Source: Thermoplasmata archaeon
Lineage (GTDB): Archaea > Thermoplasmatota > Thermoplasmata > Thermoplasmatales > Thermoplasmataceae
Length of the DNA stretch: 47,844 nt
Direction: 5' to 3'
Assembly: GCA_021803655.1 (NCBI GenBank)
Contig: JAJZLK010000026.1
Coordinates: 1-47,844, forward strand
Part shown: positions 30,222 through 42,172 of the stretch, one piece after another
Position numbering within the stretch: the stretch's first letter is position 1
Layout of the letters: each line of letters opens with the position of its first letter
Made by a program: the position numbers and the translations under genes
The notes under the pieces: generated by a model
Told to the model about the DNA's origin: nothing
Databases searched by the model: none
What the model saw: only the letters and a program-made list of their open reading frames with translations

Positions 30222-30318
30222 ACCATTAATAGGTGATCTCAACCGTAAGCCTTGGTGGCCCACCCTATCCTCATTCAACTCAGCGCAACTATTGGTCAGG
30301 AAACTGACTGATAAACAA

Positions 30319-30326
30319 TTAAATAA
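30319..30326 (+). promoter_or_regulatory. TATA box of the nuo operon
   Basis: TTAAATAA centred about 24 bp before the ATG at 30346. It lies inside the longer possible reading frame (TTG 30292) and so argues for the shorter NuoA. Confidence 0.6.
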
Positions 30327-30345
30327 CGTCTTGAAATTACGGTCT

Positions 30346-30783
30346 ATGTGGGATGGTTACATACCTCTTGCCCTGGTTTTCCTCATCATGGGGGTGGGGG
30401 TAGCGCTAACACTTTCCATTATTCCATCAATAAATGCGAGCCGTTATAACCCCGGAAAGAGACCAAGCCTGAAACCTTCCAGTATCCTGAAGAATCTGGC
30501 ATACGAGGCGGAACCGCCAGTGAGTGATACTGCATATCTGGAACCTTATGAATCAGGCGAGAAATCTAGGGGTGAATTCGGATCATACGTGAACGTGCAG
30601 TATTACGTTATTGTGCTCCTGTTTGTGCTATTTGACGTGGACATAGTTCTGCTCTTTCCGTGGGCATACAACTTCTATAATCTCGGATTCTATCCGTTTG
30701 TCGAGACACTTATATTCTTTTCAATGCCACTCTTCGCTGTCCTCTACGCTTACAGGCACGGTCAAATGAGGTGGATAAAATGA
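30346..30783 (+). CDS. nuoA: Complex I subunit NuoA
   Basis: Small membrane subunit at the junction of the quinone site and membrane arm. From ATG 30346 it has 145 residues with three membrane segments: [40 protein letters not shown] and [16 protein letters not shown]. The [12 protein letters not shown] stretch is the conserved NuoA acidic segment; the long loop before it is the flexible one seen in all homologues. The start is set by TATA spacing rather than the upstream TTG. The stop overlaps nuoB's ATG. First gene of a 14-gene unit reaching 40450. Confidence 0.93.
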
Positions 30784-31244
30784 AGTCAGGTGATGCAGGT
30801 TTCATTACTACTACAGTTGAGAAAGCCCTGACATGGGCAAGAAGTAACTCGATATGGCCTCTCACTTTCGGACTGGCATGCTGTGCAATTGAGATGATGT
30901 CTGTTCAGGCCTCGAGACTTGACGTATCCAGGTTTGGAAGTGAGGTTTTCAGGAATTCTCCAAGACAGTCAGATCTTATGATTGTGGCAGGAACGGTAAC
31001 AAAGAAGATGGCGCCGAGGCTGAAGAGGCTCTATGACGAGATGCCGTATCCGAAGTATGTTATTGCGATGGGAGTATGCGTGATCCAGGGCGGTCCCTAC
31101 GTGAAGGGATATTCTGTGGTTCTTGGCGTCGACAAGGTTGTTCCGGTCGATGTCTATGTTCCCGGGTGTCCACCTACACCGGAAGCCCTTACTTACGGAA
31201 TTGTAACGCTTCAGGAGAAAATCAGAGGAGAGACCGACCGATGA
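30780..31244 (+). CDS. nuoB: Complex I subunit NuoB (cluster N2)
   Basis: Carries the terminal Fe-S cluster N2 that passes electrons to quinone. In 154 residues: adjacent Cys34-Cys35 in [10 protein letters not shown], a third in GVCVIQGGP (about 99) and a fourth in [10 protein letters not shown] (about 129), the full N2 ligand set. ATG 30780 overlaps the nuoA stop (ATGA) and is preferred to GTG 30771. Closest characterised relatives are NuoB/FpoB proteins. Confidence 0.95.
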
Positions 31245-31705
31245 GTGAGCCGGAATCAGATTCCATCTCAAAGGGGAAGGATGGGCTTACGATTCACACG
31301 GTCAGCAAGGACAGGCTTCTGGAATTCATGAAGGATATGAAGGAGAGAGGATTCAACCACCTTTCACTTATTACCGGCGTTGACCGGCGTGATTACGTGG
31401 AAGTTGTTTATCACCTCCACGCCATGGATCGGGACGAATATGTAGTTGTGAAAACCACTACGGACAACGGAGTGGTTCCGAGCATGACTTCACTGTGGAA
31501 CAGTGCAAGATGGGACGAAAGGGAACAGTACGATCTTATGGGAATAAAATTTGAAGGGCACGAAAACCTGAAGCGTATATTCCTTCCTGAGAACTGGGTT
31601 GGCCACCCCCTGAGGAAAGACTACGATCTCAGCAACGTGCAGTACATCAATATGGACGAGGATGGGGAAGATTATGCAACGTTTGATCAGGGAGACGGTT
31701 GGTAA
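31241..31705 (+). CDS. nuoC: Complex I subunit NuoC
   Basis: The 30-kDa hydrophilic subunit that supports the NuoD/B quinone module; 154 residues from the ATG at 31241 overlapping the nuoB stop. Family signature [20 protein letters not shown] and [17 protein letters not shown] near the C-terminus. It is separate from NuoD, unlike the fused NuoCD of enterobacteria. The reading frame extends upstream, but that stretch lies within nuoB and is not used. Confidence 0.94.
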
Positions 31706-32808
31706 TGAATAATTTCGTTGAACTGAACTTCGGCCCCCAGCATCCGTCGACCCATGGAGTCCTGAGACTTCGAGCTAAGCTCGATGGTGAAATAGTGCGG
31801 GAACTTGAGCCCATAATCGGCTACCTGCACAGGAATGCTGAAAAGCTGTGTGAACTCACATTCTATGCAGACAACCTGATCTTCTTTGACCGAATGGATT
31901 ACGTTGCCTCAATGCTCATGGAGAGCGGTTATCTTGAGGCAGCAGAAAAGATTCTCAACATTCCGCCACCAGAGCGTGTTCTCTGGATCAGGGTCATCAT
32001 GAATGAGCTCTCACGGATCGCTTCTCATCTGGTATGGGCAGGAGCCTTCGGGCTTGATCTCGGGATGCTGACGCCATTCTTCTACTGCTTTGCCCAGCGG
32101 GATTACATACTTGATGTGTTTACAGAGGTGTGCGGTTCAAGACAGGAGACCAATTACATGAGCGTTGGCGGAGTCTATCAGGATCTAACACCAGAAATGA
32201 TAGAGCACATCGATGCATTTCTCCAGAGTTTCCCGAAGAAACTTGAGGAGATATACAGGCTGTTTGTCAAGAATGACATATTCATATCAAGAAACAAGGG
32301 GATAGGGGTACTATCAAAGGAAACTGCAATTGATTACGGGGTTACCGGTCCGATGCTGAGAGCCTCTGGTGTAAATTATGATGTCAGGAAAGCCAATCCT
32401 TACCTTGTTTATGACAAGGTGGATTTTGACGTGCCCATATCCCAGAAGGGAGACAATCTTGCAAGGTTTCTTGTAAGATTTGAGGAGATGAGGCAGTCGG
32501 TCAGGATCATAAAGCAGGCTATCACGAAGATTCCTGACGGTCCTTTCTTCAACCCCAAGGCAAAGAAATCAATGATGATACGGCTCAGAGGGGACGGAGA
32601 ATACTACGCAAGGACTGAATCCCCCAAGGGAGAATTCGGAGTATATATTGTAGGAGATGGCGGAGTAAAGCCTTACAGGGTGAGAGTCAGGAGTCCTTCA
32701 TTCAAGAATCTCTCAGTGCTGCCCGTACTTGCGAAGGATCAGATGATCTCGGACCTGATATCCATTTCCGGCACAATCGACCTGGTATTCGGTGAGGTGG
32801 ACCGATGA
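31705..32808 (+). CDS. nuoD: Complex I subunit NuoD (quinone site)
   Basis: The 49-kDa subunit, related to NiFe hydrogenase large subunits without the metal centre, lining the quinone channel. From ATG 31705 (TAATG overlap with nuoC) it has 367 residues. GPQHPSTHGVLRL holds the conserved quinone-channel histidine, and FFDRMDYVASM the conserved tyrosine. The hydrogenase-type terminal cysteines are absent, as in true complex I. The TTG at 31699 is a less likely alternative start. Confidence 0.95.
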   Translation: MNNFVELNFGPQHPSTHGVLRLRAKLDGEIVRELEPIIGYLHRNAEKLCELTFYADNLIFFDRMDYVASMLMESGYLEAAEKILNIPPPERVLWIRVIMNELSRIASHLVWAGAFGLDLGMLTPFFYCFAQRDYILDVFTEVCGSRQETNYMSVGGVYQDLTPEMIEHIDAFLQSFPKKLEEIYRLFVKNDIFISRNKGIGVLSKETAIDYGVTGPMLRASGVNYDVRKANPYLVYDKVDFDVPISQKGDNLARFLVRFEEMRQSVRIIKQAITKIPDGPFFNPKAKKSMMIRLRGDGEYYARTESPKGEFGVYIVGDGGVKPYRVRVRSPSFKNLSVLPVLAKDQMISDLISISGTIDLVFGEVDR

Positions 32809-33845
32809 GCATCTTCTCGAGGCTCACCTCGTTGTTCTCTCCCATGGGATATCCGATCTCAGAGGTCCTGGCGTATGTGGTGGAGAGCGCCATGCTGGCA
32901 ATCGTTGCTTCGGTGAGTCTGGCAGTTGTTATCTACCTCTTCAGGAAATACATGGCAAGGGTGCAACTGAGGATTGGACCGAACCGTGTGGGGAAGTTCG
33001 GGCTGCTTCAGGTCATGGCCGATGGTCTCAAGCTGGCGGGAAAAGAATCGATATTCCCCCGGAAGAGGGACGACCTGCCGTACAGGATTGCCCCGCTCAT
33101 GATTTTGGTTGGGCTTGTGATGGCCTTTGCCGTGATTCCTTACGGTAGCCTGTTCTGGATAGGGACTCTCACAGTATCAGATACATCCGTTTCGGTATTG
33201 CTGCTGTTTGCTATCATTGCGATAATGCCCATAGGTGAGGTCCTTGCAGGAATCAGCTCCAAGAACAAGTATGCCCTGCTCGGTGCCATGAGGGCAATAG
33301 CAAAGGACGTTTCCTTCGAGATACCTATGATGATCTCTGTTCTTGCCATCGTAATGATGGCGTCAGCAAGGACCGCGTCATCTCTCAGCATTAACTCAAT
33401 AGTGCTCACGGAACTTGTTCCATACGGGATACTTCAACCACTCGGAATATTCGTCTTCATGATTTCCATGGTCGCAAGGGCATCCTATACTCCTTTCGAC
33501 ATGGGGGAAAGCGACAGCGAACTGGTTACGGGGTACTCCACAGAATACTCCGGGCTAAGATTCGGAATGTTCTACATGGGCCTCTTTGGGTCCATTCTGC
33601 TCGGGTCATTCGTTATATCGCTCTTTTATCTGGGCGGTTTCAACGGACCAATGCAATCAAGCCTTGGTTTCGTATGGCTGGTTATAAAAGCAATGATCAT
33701 GGTGTTTATGGCATTCACTCTCTGGCTCTCCATGCCTAGGATCAGGATAGATAAATTCGTAAACCTCGGATGGAAATATCTACTGCCTATCGCAATGATA
33801 AACCTGGTGTTGTCAGGAACTCTCACGCTGCTTATGGGGTGGTAA
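32805..33845 (+). CDS. nuoH: Complex I subunit NuoH
   Basis: Membrane subunit (346 residues, about eight helices) forming the entrance of the quinone cavity and the first proton path. Motifs: RIGPNRVGKFGLLQVMADGLKL... shows the strongly conserved loop, with EIPMMISVL and PFDMGESDSELVTGY carrying the acidic residues of the proton/quinone coupling region. The ATG at 32805 overlaps the nuoD stop by four bases. Confidence 0.95.
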   Translation: MSIFSRLTSLFSPMGYPISEVLAYVVESAMLAIVASVSLAVVIYLFRKYMARVQLRIGPNRVGKFGLLQVMADGLKLAGKESIFPRKRDDLPYRIAPLMILVGLVMAFAVIPYGSLFWIGTLTVSDTSVSVLLLFAIIAIMPIGEVLAGISSKNKYALLGAMRAIAKDVSFEIPMMISVLAIVMMASARTASSLSINSIVLTELVPYGILQPLGIFVFMISMVARASYTPFDMGESDSELVTGYSTEYSGLRFGMFYMGLFGSILLGSFVISLFYLGGFNGPMQSSLGFVWLVIKAMIMVFMAFTLWLSMPRIRIDKFVNLGWKYLLPIAMINLVLSGTLTLLMGW

Positions 33846-34285
33846 GACTGGTAATTGAAGTTAAGGAACCCAGAAGATCGATACCAATAATAGGGTCATT
33901 GAGCGGTATGATGCTGGTGATGAGGCACCTCTTCAGGAAGCCTGTCACTGTCCAGTATCCGGAAGAGAAGTCAAAACTCCCTGATAGGTTCAGGTTCAGG
34001 ATATTCCTTAAACTGGACGACTGCGTTGGCTGCACGCTTTGCGAGCAGGTGTGCCCGAATGGCAGCATCACAATGCAGCACGTGGACAGGGAGAATCCCA
34101 GGAACAAGAGGATGATATACCCGGACGTAAATTTCGGAACCTGTACCGTCTGCAGGAACTGCGAGGAGATATGCCCCACGGATGCGATATATCTCACTCA
34201 CGTGTTCGAAACTTCACGTACCAGAAACAGCTTCACCTATTCCCCGGAAGAACTTGCAATGCAGGAAGACGAGGTGAAGAAGTGA
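33839..34285 (+). CDS. nuoI: Complex I subunit NuoI (two 4Fe-4S clusters)
   Basis: Ferredoxin-like subunit linking electron input to cluster N2. Two classical motifs: CVGCTLCEQVCP and CTVCRNCEEICP, each binding one 4Fe-4S cluster together with the other's last cysteine. The GTG at 33839, overlapping nuoH by 7 bp, gives 148 residues beginning with the membrane-surface helix; upstream codons in the same frame lie within nuoH. With NuoEFG missing, this subunit is the likely docking surface for the unknown electron donor (ferredoxin-like or other). Confidence 0.92.
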   Translation: MVRLVIEVKEPRRSIPIIGSLSGMMLVMRHLFRKPVTVQYPEEKSKLPDRFRFRIFLKLDDCVGCTLCEQVCPNGSITMQHVDRENPRNKRMIYPDVNFGTCTVCRNCEEICPTDAIYLTHVFETSRTRNSFTYSPEELAMQEDEVKK

Positions 34286-34530
34286 TCCTGACTGTACTGT
34301 TCCTGGTTTTCTCCGCTATACTTATCTTTACGGCAATCCTTGCCGTCGAGAACCATAACATTGTTCACTCCGCCGTATGGCTAATGTTCTTCCTCTTCTC
34401 AATGGGTTCTCTGTTCATATTCCTTGGAGCAAGTTTCCTGGGGAGCGTAGAACTGCTGGTTTATGTAGGTGCTGTCGTCACTCTCATTGTCTTCACCCTA
34501 ATGCTTACTGGAGGAAAGGAATTTGAATAG
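34282..34530 (+). CDS. nuoJ1: Complex I subunit NuoJ, N-terminal half
   Basis: An 82-residue membrane protein from GTG 34282 (GTGA overlap with the nuoI stop). It covers the first three helices of NuoJ, with AVENHNIVHSAVWLMFFLFS and the family-specific ELLVYVGAVVTLIVF helix that contains the pi-bulge implicated in coupling. It stops after GGKEFE, where a full-length NuoJ continues. The remaining helices are encoded by the next, overlapping frame. Confidence 0.88.
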   Translation: MILTVLFLVFSAILIFTAILAVENHNIVHSAVWLMFFLFSMGSLFIFLGASFLGSVELLVYVGAVVTLIVFTLMLTGGKEFE

Positions 34531-34738
34531 GAAATCGTCCGCGCTTGCTTCTGCCCTGTTTTTCCTCGTGTTTCTTGTGCAGATATTGAAGATTGGCGGA
34601 GATATGACTCTCATGACGCAGAACATAGGTACAATCGGAACACTTCTCTTCACTGAGTACCTGATTCCGTTCGAACTGATCTCAGTTATCCTCGTAGGCG
34701 GAATAATTGGGATGCTTTACGTTTCCGGAGGTGACTGA
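34523..34738 (+). CDS. nuoJ2: Complex I subunit NuoJ, C-terminal half
   Basis: A 71-residue membrane protein starting with TTG 34523, overlapping nuoJ1 by 8 bp. It provides the last two helices of NuoJ (ALASALFFLVFLVQILKI and LIPFELISVILVGGIIGMLY). The split appears deliberate rather than a frameshift, because both pieces have proper ends and start/stop overlap. Comparable splits of nuoJ are known in haloarchaea. Start choice is less certain because no ATG precedes the first helix. Confidence 0.82.
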   Translation: MNRKSSALASALFFLVFLVQILKIGGDMTLMTQNIGTIGTLLFTEYLIPFELISVILVGGIIGMLYVSGGD

Positions 34739-34740
34739 AA

Positions 34741-35034
34741 ATGTTGATGATTATACCTGAAACTGTTTCACTTCTGCTCTTTGCTATCGGGCTGTACGGG
34801 GTAATGAATTCCAGGGTGGGAATCAAGATGCTGATCTCAATAGAGATTCTCATAAATGCCGCAGTACTCAATCTTGTTGTTGTGGCTGGAACGTCAATGC
34901 AACCGGTTGTGCTTGCTGTCATGGTGATAGCTGTGTCTGCTGCGGAATCGGTCGTGGGAGTGAGTATCCTGGTTGCAATTTATCGCAGATTTGGCAGGGT
35001 AAATCTATCCCTGCTGAGTGAGATGAGGGACTGA
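34741..35034 (+). CDS. nuoK: Complex I subunit NuoK
   Basis: Three-helix membrane subunit of 97 residues, MrpC-related. It keeps the two membrane glutamates needed for proton transfer, in SIEILINAAVLNLV (helix 2) and SAAESVVGVSILVAIYR (helix 3). Begins two bases after the nuoJ2 stop. Confidence 0.94.
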   Translation: MLMIIPETVSLLLFAIGLYGVMNSRVGIKMLISIEILINAAVLNLVVVAGTSMQPVVLAVMVIAVSAAESVVGVSILVAIYRRFGRVNLSLLSEMRD

Positions 35035-35036
35035 AA

Positions 35037-36935
35037 ATGATCCTTCAGTGGCTCATTTTGCTGTCTCCGCTGCTGGCTGCACCCGTTGCGTTTGCTGCTG
35101 GCAGGTGGAAGAGAGGTCTCTCCGGAATCATAGCAAGCCTTTCAATCGCAATTTCTCTTGCTATTTCAGGAATAACCTATTTTGGCGTGGTAAGTGGAAT
35201 CACTTACTATGAGAGATTCACTTGGTTCTACAACCTTGGTTACGGGATTTACATAGACCACCTGGCAGTGGCCATGGTACTCATGGTAACCTTCGTCTCC
35301 CTCATGATCCATCTCTTTGCAATGTACTACATGGGCAAAGACCCGAACCGGCATGTGTATTTTGCCGAGACAGCCCTCTTCACTGCAGGAATGATTGGGC
35401 TAGTCATCTCCTCCAATCTCCTGGAGTTCTTCATGTTCTGGGAGCTAGTGGGCCTGTGTTCATACCTTCTTATAGGATTCTGGTTCTTCAAGCCCAACGC
35501 AACCGCTGCGGCAAAGAAAGCATTCATTGTGACCAGGATAGGAGACCTCCTGTTTCTTATCGGGCTCGTGGTTCTTTACCAGGGACTTACCGCCTCAACC
35601 GTTGTTGCAACATCACAAGGTCCCCTGAACATAGAATTTCTGATCACACATGCAGGCAGCGTGCTTAACGCACTTGGTCGTACCAGACTGTTCTTTGTCA
35701 GTCTTATGCTTCTTGGAGGGGCAATAGGGAAATCATCCCAGTTCCCCCTGCACGTCTGGATTCCGGATGCAATGGAGGGTCCTACTACGGTATCTGCACT
35801 TATTCATGCCGCAACAATGGTAACTGCCGGAATATATCTTGTTGCAAGGGTGTACCCTCTTTTCGTAGCCTCCGGCCCTGATATGCTGTATATCCTTGCA
35901 ATTCTGGGGTCATTCACTGCGCTCTTTGCAGGAACCCTTGGAATAGTGATGAACGATATCAAGCGCATACTGGCATACTCAACCATAAGCCAGCTGGGTT
36001 ATATGCTGGCTGCCCTGGGTTTCTACGGTGTATATGGGTCTGGGGTTATCGGACTCTCTGTTTATCAACTCGTAGTGCACGCGTTCTTCAAAGCACTCCT
36101 CTTCATGTCCGCGGGAGCAATACTGATTGCGCTCATGGATCTCCGTGATGTCCGGAAGATGGGGGGACTCTGGAGGAGGATGCCGCTTACGGTAACGCTG
36201 CTGTTCATCGGATCGATAACCCTGACTGCAGTTCCGTTCACTGCCGGATTCTTCTCAAAGGATGCCATAATTTCTGCCTCCTGGAGTTTCTACCAGTCTG
36301 GCGGAACATATGTCTACGGTCTGCCATGGGTATTCCTTGAAATTGGCTCCCTTATGACAGTGCTTTACACTTTCAGGATGTTTTTCCTTGTCGCTCTCGG
36401 GAAGCCAAGATCGCACCTCGCTGAGCACGCAAAGGATCCGTCTCTGGTTGCACTTCTTCCCCTTGCAGCACTGGCCGTGCTTTCATTGATATTCGGAATT
36501 TTCCAGGGGTCGTTCTATGATTTTGTAAATGGTTCAGCACTTGTACTGAAATCAGTACCGATCAGTATAGAGATAATTCCGCTGGTATTCCTGGTTGCGG
36601 GGGTCTTCCTGACCTATTTCATATTTGGGACAGGGCTCTGGCAGAAGGTCAACTTTTCAGCGGTTCCGGGTTACCGTACCCTTAAGAACAAGTACTATCT
36701 TGACAGACTGTTTACCAACTTGATTGCGGAGAGGGGCATACTCCCTGCCGCAGGTGCGTTCGGGAGGTTTGAGGATTCGTATAATTCAGGCAATGAAAGA
36801 GCCGGGCGTGGTGTCCTTTCTTTCGGATCCTATTTGAGAAAGCTTCAGTCAGGAATAATTGAAAACTACTTCCTCGTGATTGTAATCTCAATTTCGCTCA
36901 TTTTCATAATAATCGACCTGATGGGGGGATTCTAG
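35037..36935 (+). CDS. nuoL: Complex I subunit NuoL (antiporter-like)
   Basis: Largest antiporter-like subunit, 632 residues with about 16 membrane helices and the long lateral helix at the C-terminus. Key residues: the glutamate in FWELVGLCSYLLIG, the lysine in GKSSQFPLHVWIPDAM, EGPTTVSALIHAATM after it, and the central HAFFKALLF lysine. Each forms part of the proton path. It starts two bases after nuoK and is joined to nuoM by TAGATG. Confidence 0.95.
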   Translation: MILQWLILLSPLLAAPVAFAAGRWKRGLSGIIASLSIAISLAISGITYFGVVSGITYYERFTWFYNLGYGIYIDHLAVAMVLMVTFVSLMIHLFAMYYMGKDPNRHVYFAETALFTAGMIGLVISSNLLEFFMFWELVGLCSYLLIGFWFFKPNATAAAKKAFIVTRIGDLLFLIGLVVLYQGLTASTVVATSQGPLNIEFLITHAGSVLNALGRTRLFFVSLMLLGGAIGKSSQFPLHVWIPDAMEGPTTVSALIHAATMVTAGIYLVARVYPLFVASGPDMLYILAILGSFTALFAGTLGIVMNDIKRILAYSTISQLGYMLAALGFYGVYGSGVIGLSVYQLVVHAFFKALLFMSAGAILIALMDLRDVRKMGGLWRRMPLTVTLLFIGSITLTAVPFTAGFFSKDAIISASWSFYQSGGTYVYGLPWVFLEIGSLMTVLYTFRMFFLVALGKPRSHLAEHAKDPSLVALLPLAALAVLSLIFGIFQGSFYDFVNGSALVLKSVPISIEIIPLVFLVAGVFLTYFIFGTGLWQKVNFSAVPGYRTLKNKYYLDRLFTNLIAERGILPAAGAFGRFEDSYNSGNERAGRGVLSFGSYLRKLQSGIIENYFLVIVISISLIFIIIDLMGGF

Positions 36936-38414
36936 ATGATAGATCTAGCTGCGATCTTTGCTCTGCTTTCTGCACTTTCCGTACTGACATTCTTCGCCGG
37001 AAGGCATTCTTCTGCCTTCGCCATGATTTCGTCGGCAGTCGTTATGGTCGCAACTGCGTTCTACGTTGCGATTACCATGGAATCTTATACTGGAGGAATG
37101 ATCGGCCGTTATTCCATTGTGCTTAACAGTGCCCAGGGGATATCTTTCTCCATAGGAATAAGCGGATTTACTGCTCCTCTTCTGCTTGCTGCATCAATAG
37201 TATTTCCTCTTGCACTTTTCCTCTCAAGGGGAGGAGAATATGGCGGAACTTTCTACGGATTGATGATGATCTCGGAAACGGGACTTTACGGAGTCCTGAT
37301 CTCAAGGGACTTCATGTTTTTCTACATCTTCTGGGAAGTGGTTCTGGTTCCGGTGTTTTTCCTCATAACGCTTTACGGCGGTGTGAGAAGGCAGTCCGTC
37401 TCGCTAAAATTCTTTGTATATACACACATAGGATCGGCGTTCATACTTTTGTCAATCTTCTCGCTTTACGCTTACTATTTTGCAATATATGGGACTTTCT
37501 CCATGCAGATTTCGTCCCTAACTGATCCTGCGTTTGTCTCGAAGATCCCGTACTTCTGGCAGATATTCGTTATTGCGGGACTGATGATAGGGTTCCTGGT
37601 AAAGCTTCCAACTTTTCCAATACATTCATGGCTTCCGGACACGTACGATACGGCCCCATATCCAGTTACCGTGATAATTGCTGGTGGGCTTTCTCTCATG
37701 GGAGGATACGGTCTGTTTGGAATCATGCTCCGGATGGGGACGCTGTTTCCTCTGGTCTCACTGTGGTTCATAATCATGCTCTCGCTGATCTCCCTGGTAT
37801 ACTTCTCGCTGACGGCAATGTACCAGTACAGGATCAAGAGAATGATGGCCTATGCAAGCGCCGGTTCTATGGGATTTGTAACCCTGGCCTTCGCTTCCGG
37901 TATCATGGAGAAAACGGGGACAGATTATGTGCTCGCTATTTCCGGCGGGATGTTCCAGATCTTTGCCCACTCCCTCATAATAGCGCTTCTGTTTGCAAGT
38001 ATCTTCTACATAAGGAAGGTCAGCGGAAACGATTCTATATTCGGGCTTGGGGGAATCTACCGTGAGGCTCCGCTCCTTTCATCGATTACACTTGGTGGTC
38101 TTCTGGCTTCGCTGGGACTGCCGGGCCTTGCGGGTTTTGTCGGGGAATTCTCAATCCTTGGAGGGACTTTCCAGACGATTGGCTATCTCATATTTGTGGT
38201 GATATTCTCAATGATCATAACTGCATCTTATCATATCTGGTTTGCACAGAGATCCCTTTATGGCCCTTACAACGAAGGCCTTGGAAGGATACGCGATCTC
38301 AGCAGGTCTGAGTTTATTGTTCTCGGATCCCTCCTGTTCTTCCTTCTTTTCATAGGGGTGTTTCCTTCACTGTTCTTCAACCTATTTTCATCATATGTGG
38401 GGGGTCTTCTATGA
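36936..38414 (+). CDS. nuoM: Complex I subunit NuoM (antiporter-like)
   Basis: Second antiporter-like subunit, 492 residues and about 14 helices. It has the helix-5 glutamate in FWEVVLVPVFF, the helix-7 lysine in VKLPTFPIHSWLPDTY, and AHSLIIALLF in the broken-helix region. The ATG immediately follows the nuoL stop. Proton-pumping function is inferred from the intact charged residues. Confidence 0.95.
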   Translation: MIDLAAIFALLSALSVLTFFAGRHSSAFAMISSAVVMVATAFYVAITMESYTGGMIGRYSIVLNSAQGISFSIGISGFTAPLLLAASIVFPLALFLSRGGEYGGTFYGLMMISETGLYGVLISRDFMFFYIFWEVVLVPVFFLITLYGGVRRQSVSLKFFVYTHIGSAFILLSIFSLYAYYFAIYGTFSMQISSLTDPAFVSKIPYFWQIFVIAGLMIGFLVKLPTFPIHSWLPDTYDTAPYPVTVIIAGGLSLMGGYGLFGIMLRMGTLFPLVSLWFIIMLSLISLVYFSLTAMYQYRIKRMMAYASAGSMGFVTLAFASGIMEKTGTDYVLAISGGMFQIFAHSLIIALLFASIFYIRKVSGNDSIFGLGGIYREAPLLSSITLGGLLASLGLPGLAGFVGEFSILGGTFQTIGYLIFVVIFSMIITASYHIWFAQRSLYGPYNEGLGRIRDLSRSEFIVLGSLLFFLLFIGVFPSLFFNLFSSYVGGLL

Positions 38415-39847
38415 ACCTGGTTGCTGATCTACTGTCACTGGAGTATTTCTTTCCACTGATAGCAGTGGGCCTCGCCGGATTTATCCTGCTTGTGATTGGA
38501 TTTTTCCACAACAGTGGGAGACTCTATGCCGTAATCACATTCGCGGTATTGCTTGCTGCCCTCATCTCTATAATATTCCTGGCACCTTCTGTTGTGCTCG
38601 GAGGTATCCTGATATACAATCCCTTCAACGCATATTTCGCAGCAATTCTAATCATATCTTCAATGTTTGTTGCATTTCCGGCCCTGAAGAACATCACCGC
38701 GAGGTGGGATGTGTTCTACTCGCTGCTCCTGTTCGTTACCCTTGGTATGATTGTGGCATCATTCACAATGAACCTTGTGGTCATGTTCGTCGCTTTTGAA
38801 GCAGTTAGTCTTGGGACCTATGTAATGGCTGGATTTCACAAGACGAAGCGTGCGCTCGAAGCCTCAGCCAAGTACTTCTTCACGGGTGCAGTATCAACCG
38901 CATTCATCATTCTCGGCCTCTCCTACTATTTCCAGGCTACCCGCACCTTCGATCTCAATGCAGTCACGACAGGGGCACATACGCCTCTCCTGATCGCACT
39001 TGCCTTCCTTGTTATAGGGTTTGGGTTCAAACTCGCTATATTCCCAATGCACCAGTGGGCAATCGACACATACGATGGCTCTGAGAACTCAGTGTCTGCG
39101 CTTCTCTCCACTGGAGGAAAGATTGTAGCATTCATGATAATGCTGAAACTTTTCGTGCTCGGGTTTCCATCTATGGGTGATCAGGTTTTCATATTCTTCA
39201 CCCTGCTCGCAATATTCACGATGACTTACGGGAACCTTTCTGCGCTATCCGAAACGAAATTGAAAAGGCTCTTGGCATATTCGAGCGTTGCGCAGGCGGG
39301 ATACCTGATCCTTGTCTTCAGCGCTGTCGGCTATGGACAGTATAACCACGACCCGGCTGCTTACATTCAGACAATCGTTGCTGCCGGAATGCTATACTCG
39401 CTGGTCTACATCTTCATGAAGGGAGGTGCATTCCTTTCAATGAATGCCATCAAGAAGGAAGAACCGTTAATTGAGGACGTGGCCGGGATGTCAAAACAAT
39501 CTCCGATTTTAGCACTCAGTCTTTCAATACTGCTGCTTGCACTGGCCGGTATCCCGCTGACGGGCGGATTCACAGGAAAGGCATTCCTGTTCCTGTCCCT
39601 GATACAGGTGAAGTTATGGTGGGTCGCTGTGATAGCAATCCTCAACAGTGCCGTCTCTGTCTTCTATTATCTAAGGGTGATCAGCTACATGTACCGCAGG
39701 GAGCCTTCTGACAGGGAACCGTTCTTTACTGGCAGATCGGTCATAGCGCCGGTCGCAGTTGCGGCAATCATTACTGTAGCAATCGGTGTCTACTGGACCG
39801 TATTCTACCTTGTGCTTCCGTACGCAGCTTATCTGTTGGGTGGATGA
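38411..39847 (+). CDS. nuoN: Complex I subunit NuoN (antiporter-like)
   Basis: Third antiporter-like subunit, 478 residues. FVAFEAVSLGTYVMAGF carries the helix-5 glutamate, GFKLAIFPMHQWAIDTYDG the helix-7 lysine and YIFMKGGAF the central lysine. It overlaps nuoM by four bases. It normally closes nuo operons; here two further small genes follow without a gap. Confidence 0.95.
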   Translation: MNLVADLLSLEYFFPLIAVGLAGFILLVIGFFHNSGRLYAVITFAVLLAALISIIFLAPSVVLGGILIYNPFNAYFAAILIISSMFVAFPALKNITARWDVFYSLLLFVTLGMIVASFTMNLVVMFVAFEAVSLGTYVMAGFHKTKRALEASAKYFFTGAVSTAFIILGLSYYFQATRTFDLNAVTTGAHTPLLIALAFLVIGFGFKLAIFPMHQWAIDTYDGSENSVSALLSTGGKIVAFMIMLKLFVLGFPSMGDQVFIFFTLLAIFTMTYGNLSALSETKLKRLLAYSSVAQAGYLILVFSAVGYGQYNHDPAAYIQTIVAAGMLYSLVYIFMKGGAFLSMNAIKKEEPLIEDVAGMSKQSPILALSLSILLLALAGIPLTGGFTGKAFLFLSLIQVKLWWVAVIAILNSAVSVFYYLRVISYMYRREPSDREPFFTGRSVIAPVAVAAIITVAIGVYWTVFYLVLPYAAYLLGG

Positions 39848-39848
39848 G

Positions 39849-40202
39849 ATGAACATAATTGTTGAACTGGACTTTGTCGAATCATCTATGATGCAAGGAG
39901 ATTTTGGCAATGCAATACGCAGGTTGGAGTCATCAGTCAGGAAAGAGAGACAAAGGAGATCAATGGCCGGACTTGAGGGTGACACGGCCGAGATAACCGT
40001 TCTGGAGAGTATACTGGATACAATCAGAGGCAAGCACACTCTACAGGAGCTTAAGAGTTTACTGTCAAAATCAACGGCGCTTTCCACTATGCTTGACGGG
40101 AAGATTTTCCTGGACCGCTTTACCTATAATTTTGCTTACTGCACGGACAGGTACTTTCTCTCATACCCGGAGTATAACCAGAAGAGGTGCGATGATCTAT
40201 GA
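39849..40202 (+). CDS. Unrecognised 117-residue protein ending the nuo operon (first)
   Basis: Start ATG 39849 lies one base after the nuoN stop; the longer frame upstream is inside nuoN. The protein is soluble with no membrane segment: a helical N-terminal half (ELDFVESSMMQGDFGNAIRR, basic KERQRR), a leucine-rich middle (TLQELKSLLSKSTALSTML) and an aromatic C-terminal part with two cysteines (FAYCTDRYFL; KRCDDL). No domain is recognised. Position in a tightly coupled complex I operon suggests an assembly factor, accessory subunit or docking partner; this is inference only. The next gene overlaps its stop by four bases. Confidence 0.8.
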   Translation: MNIIVELDFVESSMMQGDFGNAIRRLESSVRKERQRRSMAGLEGDTAEITVLESILDTIRGKHTLQELKSLLSKSTALSTMLDGKIFLDRFTYNFAYCTDRYFLSYPEYNQKRCDDL

Positions 40203-40450
40203 GCAACAGATTCACCGAATGTTTTGAGGAGGCTAAGGACGAGGAGTCGGCAGCGGAGTGCATCCACTGTCTCAGGAAGCACGGCGAGGCCGTCATGTTC
40301 TCGCAGGATAAGGGAAGAATCATCCTCGGAAGAGAGTCGTGGGACAAGACTGTTTCAGGGGAGATGGAACGGATATCCGGACTTCTTGGAATAAACAGCC
40401 TGGAAAAGTACAAGGAAATGGACGAGAAATACAATCTCACCATGTACTGA
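40199..40450 (+). CDS. Unrecognised 83-residue protein ending the nuo operon (second)
   Basis: Starts at ATG 40199 within an ATGA overlap, so it is the final gene of the nuo unit. Soluble and acidic; three cysteines occur near the N-terminus (Cys8 in TECFEEAKDE, Cys21 and Cys24 in ECIHCLRKHGE), giving a CxxC that could bind metal or form a disulfide. The rest is helical and charged (GLLGINSLEKYKEM), ending NLTMY. No family is recognised. Co-translation with the preceding unknown gene suggests the two products act together, perhaps at the electron-input face that lacks NuoEFG. Confidence 0.78.
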   Translation: MSNRFTECFEEAKDEESAAECIHCLRKHGEAVMFSQDKGRIILGRESWDKTVSGEMERISGLLGINSLEKYKEMDEKYNLTMY

Positions 40451-41859: not shown

Positions 41860-41929
41860 GTTTCATCCACAAGTGTTCATCTTTGTTTGCGGTGTCAAAA
41901 TTCAACCGGCTTTGACAATAGGAGGGATA

Positions 41930-42172
41930 ATGAGCGACCTGAAGAGAAGGTCGCATACTCATGTCGTCATTCCAAGGTTCGTTCCCACAACACAAACCTG
42001 CTCGAGGTGCGGCAACAGGCAGGAGATCGATCTCAACCAGCGCATCTATTCATGCGGGAAATGCAGTCTTGTTATGGATAGAGACCTGAACTCTGCTATG
42101 GATATACTCAACGAACATGTACCTGCGGAACGCAGGGAATTAACGCCTTGTATATCATTATTAGGTTCATGA
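41930..42172 (+). pseudogene. tnpB: TnpB C-terminal remnant (zinc ribbon and last RuvC motif)
   Basis: An 80-codon frame from ATG 41930 matches only the last part of IS200/IS605-family TnpB, the RNA-guided nuclease. It keeps the zinc ribbon (Cys24, Cys27, Cys42, Cys45 in CSRCGN and SCGKC) and RuvC-III motif DRDLNSA (Asp50/Asp52). The N-terminal guide-binding part and RuvC I-II acidic residues are missing (a complete TnpB is about 400 residues), so it cannot cleave DNA. Curiously a perfect GGAGGG stands five bases before the ATG, so the fragment could be translated. The natural C-terminal motif VPAERRELTP is intact. The stop lies inside the first arm of a palindrome. Confidence 0.8.

Follow-up and report, generated by a model that had tools for sequence, protein, structure and literature searches.

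The window analysed here covers positions 1 to 47,844 of contig JAJZLK010000026.1 of a Thermoplasmata archaeon (assembly GCA_021803655.1). It carries a core complex I operon whose gene order recurs in related loci in tblastn searches, and at the end of this operon lie two small genes, here called P1 and P2 (Table 1). The stop codon of nuoN is a TGA at 39845-39847, and the ATG of P1 follows after one intervening base, 39848. The initial annotation placed nuoN, the 117-residue gene one base on and the ATGA-overlapping 83-residue gene correctly; its description of the two as translationally fused is better replaced, since P1 and P2 are separate, overlapping genes that are translationally coupled. 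The 4-nt overlap is also found in 45 of the 48 loci with automatically assigned starts, and in 40 of 49 P1 sequences the GAGGTG motif falls within the final 18 nt. Downstream of P2 the genes tatC/tatA are convergent, so that P2 is the last gene of the operon. A short frame (41873-42172, + strand), flanked by the tat genes on one side and a hydrolase gene on the other, looks by eye like the end of a TnpB-type transposon protein that carries the zinc finger and is likely to be a transposon remnant.

Table 1. Position of the complex I operon, its two terminal genes and the associated translation signals in the window
Feature	Position	Strand	Basis and remarks
nuoA-B-C-D-H-I-J1-J2-K-L-M-N core complex I operon	30292..39847	+	ORFs; Pfam matches to NuoA, B, C, I and N
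P1, 117 aa	39849..40202	+	ORF; predicted helical; without Pfam/NCBIfam family; conserved C-terminal tail
P2, 83 aa	40199..40450	+	ORF; Cys8/Cys24 pair; invariant NLT-x-Y C-terminus; without Pfam/NCBIfam family
ATGA start/stop overlap, P1-P2 coupling	40199..40202	+	P2 start within P1 stop
GAGGTG, Shine-Dalgarno-like site for P2	40184..40189	+	Within the codons for KRC in P1

Both frames are real genes under purifying selection, since homologues occupy the same position in related genomes and dN/dS is low. Of 12 close pairs, those in which dS was not saturated (6 for P1, 8 for P2) gave values of 0.04-0.17 for P1 and 0.02-0.06 for P2. P1 evolves faster than P2. Both proteins are hydrophilic (GRAVY -0.39 and -0.70, respectively). 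Alignments of 49 P1 and 50 P2 sequences were made with the near-duplicates L090, L097, L109 and L117 left out; the P1 alignment is one row shorter because in one locus, L091, P2 follows straight after nuoN without P1, the contig ending there. Neither protein reaches the cut-off of any Pfam or NCBIfam family, neither has a credible sequence relative in the PDB, and an hhalign comparison found no homology between the two. The RNA_binding family PF01877 was considered for P1 and rejected (17.9 bits against a cut-off of 26.9, with 1 of 49 homologues matching at E 0.1), as were Tim54 and dsrA for P2, for which the matches were weak, scattered and below cut-off.

The order Thermoplasmatales was surveyed in 101 genomes, many of them fragmented MAGs, and P2 is present in 78. 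By family, it occurs in 59 of 61 genomes of f1, 14 of 15 of f3 and all 5 of f4, and in none of the 18 genomes of f5 or the single genomes of f2 and f6. The contigs of the two f1 genomes missing P2 (G084, G094) stop just after nuoN in one case and inside nuoL in the other, and the f3 genome missing it (G044) is also missing a NuoD match. P1, searched for with the single window sequence, was found in 67 of the 101 genomes and adjoins P2 in 66 of these, the exception being G006. P2 is on the same contig and strand as nuoD in 73 of the 78 genomes, with the two on different contigs in the other 5, and P2 is 7.5-8.4 kb downstream of nuoD in 72 of the 73 and 4.1 kb downstream in G006.

The families that carry P2 (f1, f3 and f4) have nuoABCDHIJJKLMN. 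In four loci from f5, f2 and f6 the genes seen are limited to L/M/N-, B-, C-, D-, H- and I-like ones, A, J and K being missing, and NuoA was not found in the 2 f5 genomes examined out of the 18. P2 was not found where only such hydrogenase-like relatives of complex I were seen. Thus, the pair appears to track true complex I rather than the hydrogenase-type relatives, a conclusion that is an extrapolation for 16 of the 18 f5 genomes.

A search of a genome-contig collection with the P2 alignment gave 54 loci, whose record titles name Thermoplasma, Acidiplasma and Thermogymnomonas among others, along with many Thermoplasmata MAGs; P1 alone gave no match in the same collection. After one locus with an incomplete P2 (L134) was dropped, nuoN was found upstream of P2 in all 53 loci counted and P1 directly upstream of P2 in 52 of them. 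The pair is therefore conserved downstream of nuoN in relatives, and this linkage, together with that to nuoD, upholds the proposal in the initial annotation that the pair belongs functionally to complex I. One of the loci, L130, has the record title Candidatus Syntrophoarchaeum sp. and the gene order nuoI-J-J-K-L-M-N-P1-P2. Strong P2 matches were found in 2 of 246 genomes (G273 and G301) of the phylum of L130, which we take to be Halobacteriota; in G301, the pair closes a nuoI-J-K-L-M-N block, with nuoBCDH on the opposite strand.

Among 194 genomes of the phylum Thermoplasmatota, 20 have strong P1 matches, the strong P2 matches come from these same 20, and all 20 belong to the order. NuoA is present in 115 of the 194, and these comprise the 20 with the pair and 95 without it, counted whatever their NuoEFG content. 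Eighteen other Thermoplasmatota nuo operons were fetched, and in none of the 16 that reach nuoN do P1 or P2 follow it; archaeal complex I therefore does not generally include the pair. In about 10 of these 18 operons (L218-L223, L225, L226, L229 and L230) NuoI is long and its C-terminus bears what look by eye like additional [4Fe-4S] motifs of the ferredoxin type; the NuoI of the window is the short two-cluster form.

Weak matches were set aside as chance, being 9 of 29 and 11 of 31 rows in the two scans of Thermoplasmatota and 6 of 9 rows in the scan of the phylum of L130. No nuo cluster lies alongside the 4 that were examined of the 9, and G383, one of the 6, has no nuo genes. Homologues away from nuo genes are not widespread: only one P2-like gene of this kind was seen, a diverged one in G413 (E 3.8e-8), with no nuo genes on the stretch read. 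This gene (L171, 12869-13132) encodes 87 aa with two cysteines at matching places and lies at a contig end, near a gene that by eye is CdhD-like.

The history of the pair was compared with that of the enzyme in a maximum-likelihood tree (LG+G4) built on the concatenated sequences of six core subunits (NuoB, D, H, L, M and N) in 29 operons, with P1 and P2 excluded. The pair-bearing complexes, ten from Thermoplasmatales plus L170, form one clade with UFBoot 100; the ten Thermoplasmatales operons alone are grouped with UFBoot 68. L170 comes from a Ca. Syntrophoarchaeum-related genome of another phylum, and the single clade thus implies that the pair and the version of complex I it accompanies share one history across phyla, whether by inheritance or by transfer. 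On this phylogeny, the pair marks one complex I clade found in two phyla.

The exceptional genome G006 shows what happens when the operon is divided. One operon there runs nuoA-B-C-D-H-I-J-K-N and ends in P2, and two separate, diverged nuoL-nuoM pairs (L211 and L212) are each followed by a P1 of their own. This split is the best hint of partners for the two proteins, suggesting that P1 goes with NuoL/NuoM and P2 with NuoN or the core; for P1, the hint is drawn from the two cassettes of this one genome. Because the pair stays with the complex I operon wherever the operon goes, chance adjacency is improbable, and P1 and P2 probably serve the proton pump specifically, either as components of it or in its construction.

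Structure prediction gives a helical array for P1 (mean pLDDT 85, pTM 0.76) with a low-confidence tail from about residue 101, and for P2 two helices, a beta-hairpin, three helices and a low-confidence tail (mean pLDDT 87, pTM 0.72). In Foldseek searches neither model had a match at E 0.001. The best VIA-align match of P1 is ElrR (Z 8.9, rmsd 3.0, 92 aligned), followed by many TPR rows at Z 4-5 that are within the chance range for helical models; the matches of P2 reach Z 2.4 at most. NdhS is not among the fold matches listed, and such a listing does not exclude it. The matches, weakly TPR-like for P1 and none for P2, point to no particular binding mode.

The tails are conserved and yet have low pLDDT (58 for P2 and 50-60 for P1) against the confident bodies. 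R101, Y102, P107, R113 and D116 are invariant in the P1 tail (n=49), as are N79, L80, T81 and Y83 in that of P2 (n=50). Such a combination would be seen if the tails became ordered on binding a partner; low pLDDT in a conserved tail can also have other causes. The conservation of the P1 tail, in its KRC part, is partly at the nucleotide level, because these codons hold the Shine-Dalgarno-like site of P2 and because the P1 copies of G006, which lie away from P2, end instead in KRIDP and KRANDVI. The RY and P upstream of KRC stay conserved, so that the P1 tail is constrained at the protein level as well.

We favour, with moderate confidence, the reading in which P1 and P2 serve a single lineage of archaeal complex I as accessory subunits specific to that clade. 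Both proteins are soluble, and translational coupling keeps their output in step with that of NuoN. The conserved, unstructured C-terminal tail of P1 probably grips the membrane-arm module NuoL/NuoM, and that of P2 probably grips the complex next to NuoN, presumably at the cytoplasmic face. Bound in this way, the pair would stabilise or trim the proton-pumping arm without carrying electrons. Supernumerary subunits of this general kind are familiar from bacterial and mitochondrial complex I, for example Nqo15/Nqo16, NdhS and the NDUFA/NDUFB proteins. Like them, P1 and P2 would be lineage-specific extras added to a conserved core; the pair co-occurs with the core and is inherited with it. Sequence searches of the PDB, however, gave no credible relative, and fold searches no significant match.

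It is possible that P1 and P2 are instead dedicated assembly factors, their tails binding intermediates of the membrane arm (P1 those with NuoL/NuoM, P2 those with NuoN) before the proteins leave or stay at sub-stoichiometric levels. Nearly everything observed, including the linkage, the co-occurrence and the splitting, would look alike for an assembly factor and an accessory subunit. The duplication of P1 with each nuoL-nuoM cassette fits a module-specific factor, and P1 is helical with weak matches to many TPR domains, which are common among chaperone-type binders, but these TPR-like Z values are no higher than chance allows for helical models. The coupling to core genes through a 1-base gap and a 4-nt overlap suggests, however, that output is matched to that of the subunits, and a pair in this position elsewhere is described as "highly transcribed" in the legend discussed below (PMC9012536), which fits subunits better.

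The initial annotation tied the pair to the missing NADH module and an unknown donor, and a docking site or relay for an electron donor such as ferredoxin, standing in for NuoEFG, is a distinctly doubtful explanation on the present evidence. That the operon lacks NuoEFG is borne out: the NuoF family PF01512 has 0 matches genome-wide in the window's genome, which is 91% complete, and no E, F or G gene is found among the ORFs of the operon. As described in PMC5155288, Cuniculiplasma has nuoABCDHIJJKLMN without EFG and its electron donor is in doubt; most acid mine drainage relatives are EFG-less according to PMC3750248, and ferredoxin is proposed in PMC12533140 as the donor for the truncated complex I of a Syntropharchaeia family. 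In L130 and L170, nuoI shares a gene block with the pair, which would also suit a docking role. Against this, the 95 NuoA-bearing genomes of the phylum without the pair leave only 20 of 115 with it, and when the operon is split P1 goes, twice, with the antiporter-like subunits nuoL-nuoM, which form the distal end of the membrane arm, and P2 keeps to the block ending in nuoN. Among the 101 genomes of the order, 35 have NuoF-like genes, and 24 of these belong to the pair-bearing family f1, so that a restriction of the pair to genomes without any NuoF-like gene does not follow; in both loci analysed from pair-bearing genomes (L207 and L209), the NuoF-like gene is followed by one for formate dehydrogenase alpha.

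The cysteines of P2 also argue against a donor function. The CxxC reported for the window is there (C21-I-H-C24) and does not hold as a conserved feature: it is kept in 31 of 50 homologues, Cys21 being replaced in the other 19. Cys8 and Cys24 occur together in 43 of the 50 and are both gone in 7, all short versions that are missing the first helix, and these 7 have none of the three cysteines. One family has lost all three and retains the protein itself, a shared loss that may be a single event. The CxxC was therefore rejected as a metal site, no other conserved metal or cofactor site is present, and an essential redox centre in P2 seems unlikely, as judged from the alignment. A Cys8-Cys24 disulfide is possible. 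Electron carriage by the pair is thus unlikely and donor docking by it unsupported.

That P1 and P2 are passengers on the transcript, or regulate the operon without touching the enzyme, is very improbable: G413 does have a P2-like gene away from nuo genes, but the pair is retained in nearly all operons of three families, moves with core genes after operon fission and shares its inheritance with the complex across phyla.

Other small proteins are known at this position. FpoO (PF10621) of the Methanosarcina-type complex is, like P1 and P2, a small soluble protein encoded right after fpoN; the two Methanosarcina-type operons that we analysed have it there instead of the pair, starting 1 and 13 bases after fpoN in L231 and L232. 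FpoO is, however, cysteine-rich, with four CxxC pairs, whereas P2 has at most one CxxC and P1 none. FpoO was rejected as an identity for either protein, as PF10621 matched nothing in the window's genome at E 10 and there is no shared motif. The Fpo-like complex of Methanomassiliicoccales is without both FpoF and FpoO, according to PMC4153887. The truncated NUO of Ca. Aerarchaeaceae (Syntropharchaeia) resembles the complex of the window in being without NADH or F420H2 input subunits and belongs to a lineage related by name to L130; it differs in that extra genes after nuoN are not mentioned in the available passages of PMC12533140.

A closer parallel is provided by FpoX and FpoY, which the legend to S6 Fig of PMC9012536 describes as two conserved, highly transcribed proteins after fpoN in ANME-2c and Ca. 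Syntrophoarchaeum. The same source gives both groups as without FpoO and the ANME-2c Fpo as most like that of Methanosarcinaceae. In both systems two genes lie directly after fpoN or nuoN (in the window, L130 and L170), in the place of FpoO, and the Syntrophoarchaeum-titled L130 has P1 and P2 in exactly that place. In contrast, the pair-bearing clade is apart from the Methanosarcina-type Fpo in our tree, and strong P2 matches were confined to 2 of the 246 genomes sampled from the phylum of L130. Because of L130, FpoX and FpoY may plausibly be the same pair as P1 and P2, the two having been likened by position and description, not by sequence. If so, the pair was first noticed in PMC9012536, as far as its figure legend goes, and what is new here is its presence across Thermoplasmatales, the clade-level co-inheritance, the analysis of cysteines and tails, and the split operon. 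The passages of the literature that were consulted make no mention of P1 or P2 in Thermoplasmatales; supplements, such as Additional file 8 of PMC1852104, may list the pair.

The accessory-subunit reading can be extended, with considerable reserve, to one in which the two proteins make up a soluble module, bound to the antiporter-like pumps NuoL, NuoM and NuoN on the cytoplasmic side and controlling them. Variants of P1 would then travel with alternative nuoL-nuoM cassettes, and a cell like G006 could swap arm modules, each with its own P1, on a common core marked by P2; as a whole this seems rather unlikely. More generally, if the pair belongs to complex I, work on the 12 annotated genes alone would reconstitute or model an incomplete enzyme. 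The conserved tails of P1 and P2, and a genome with two nuoL-nuoM-P1 cassettes, provide experimental handles on the pair.
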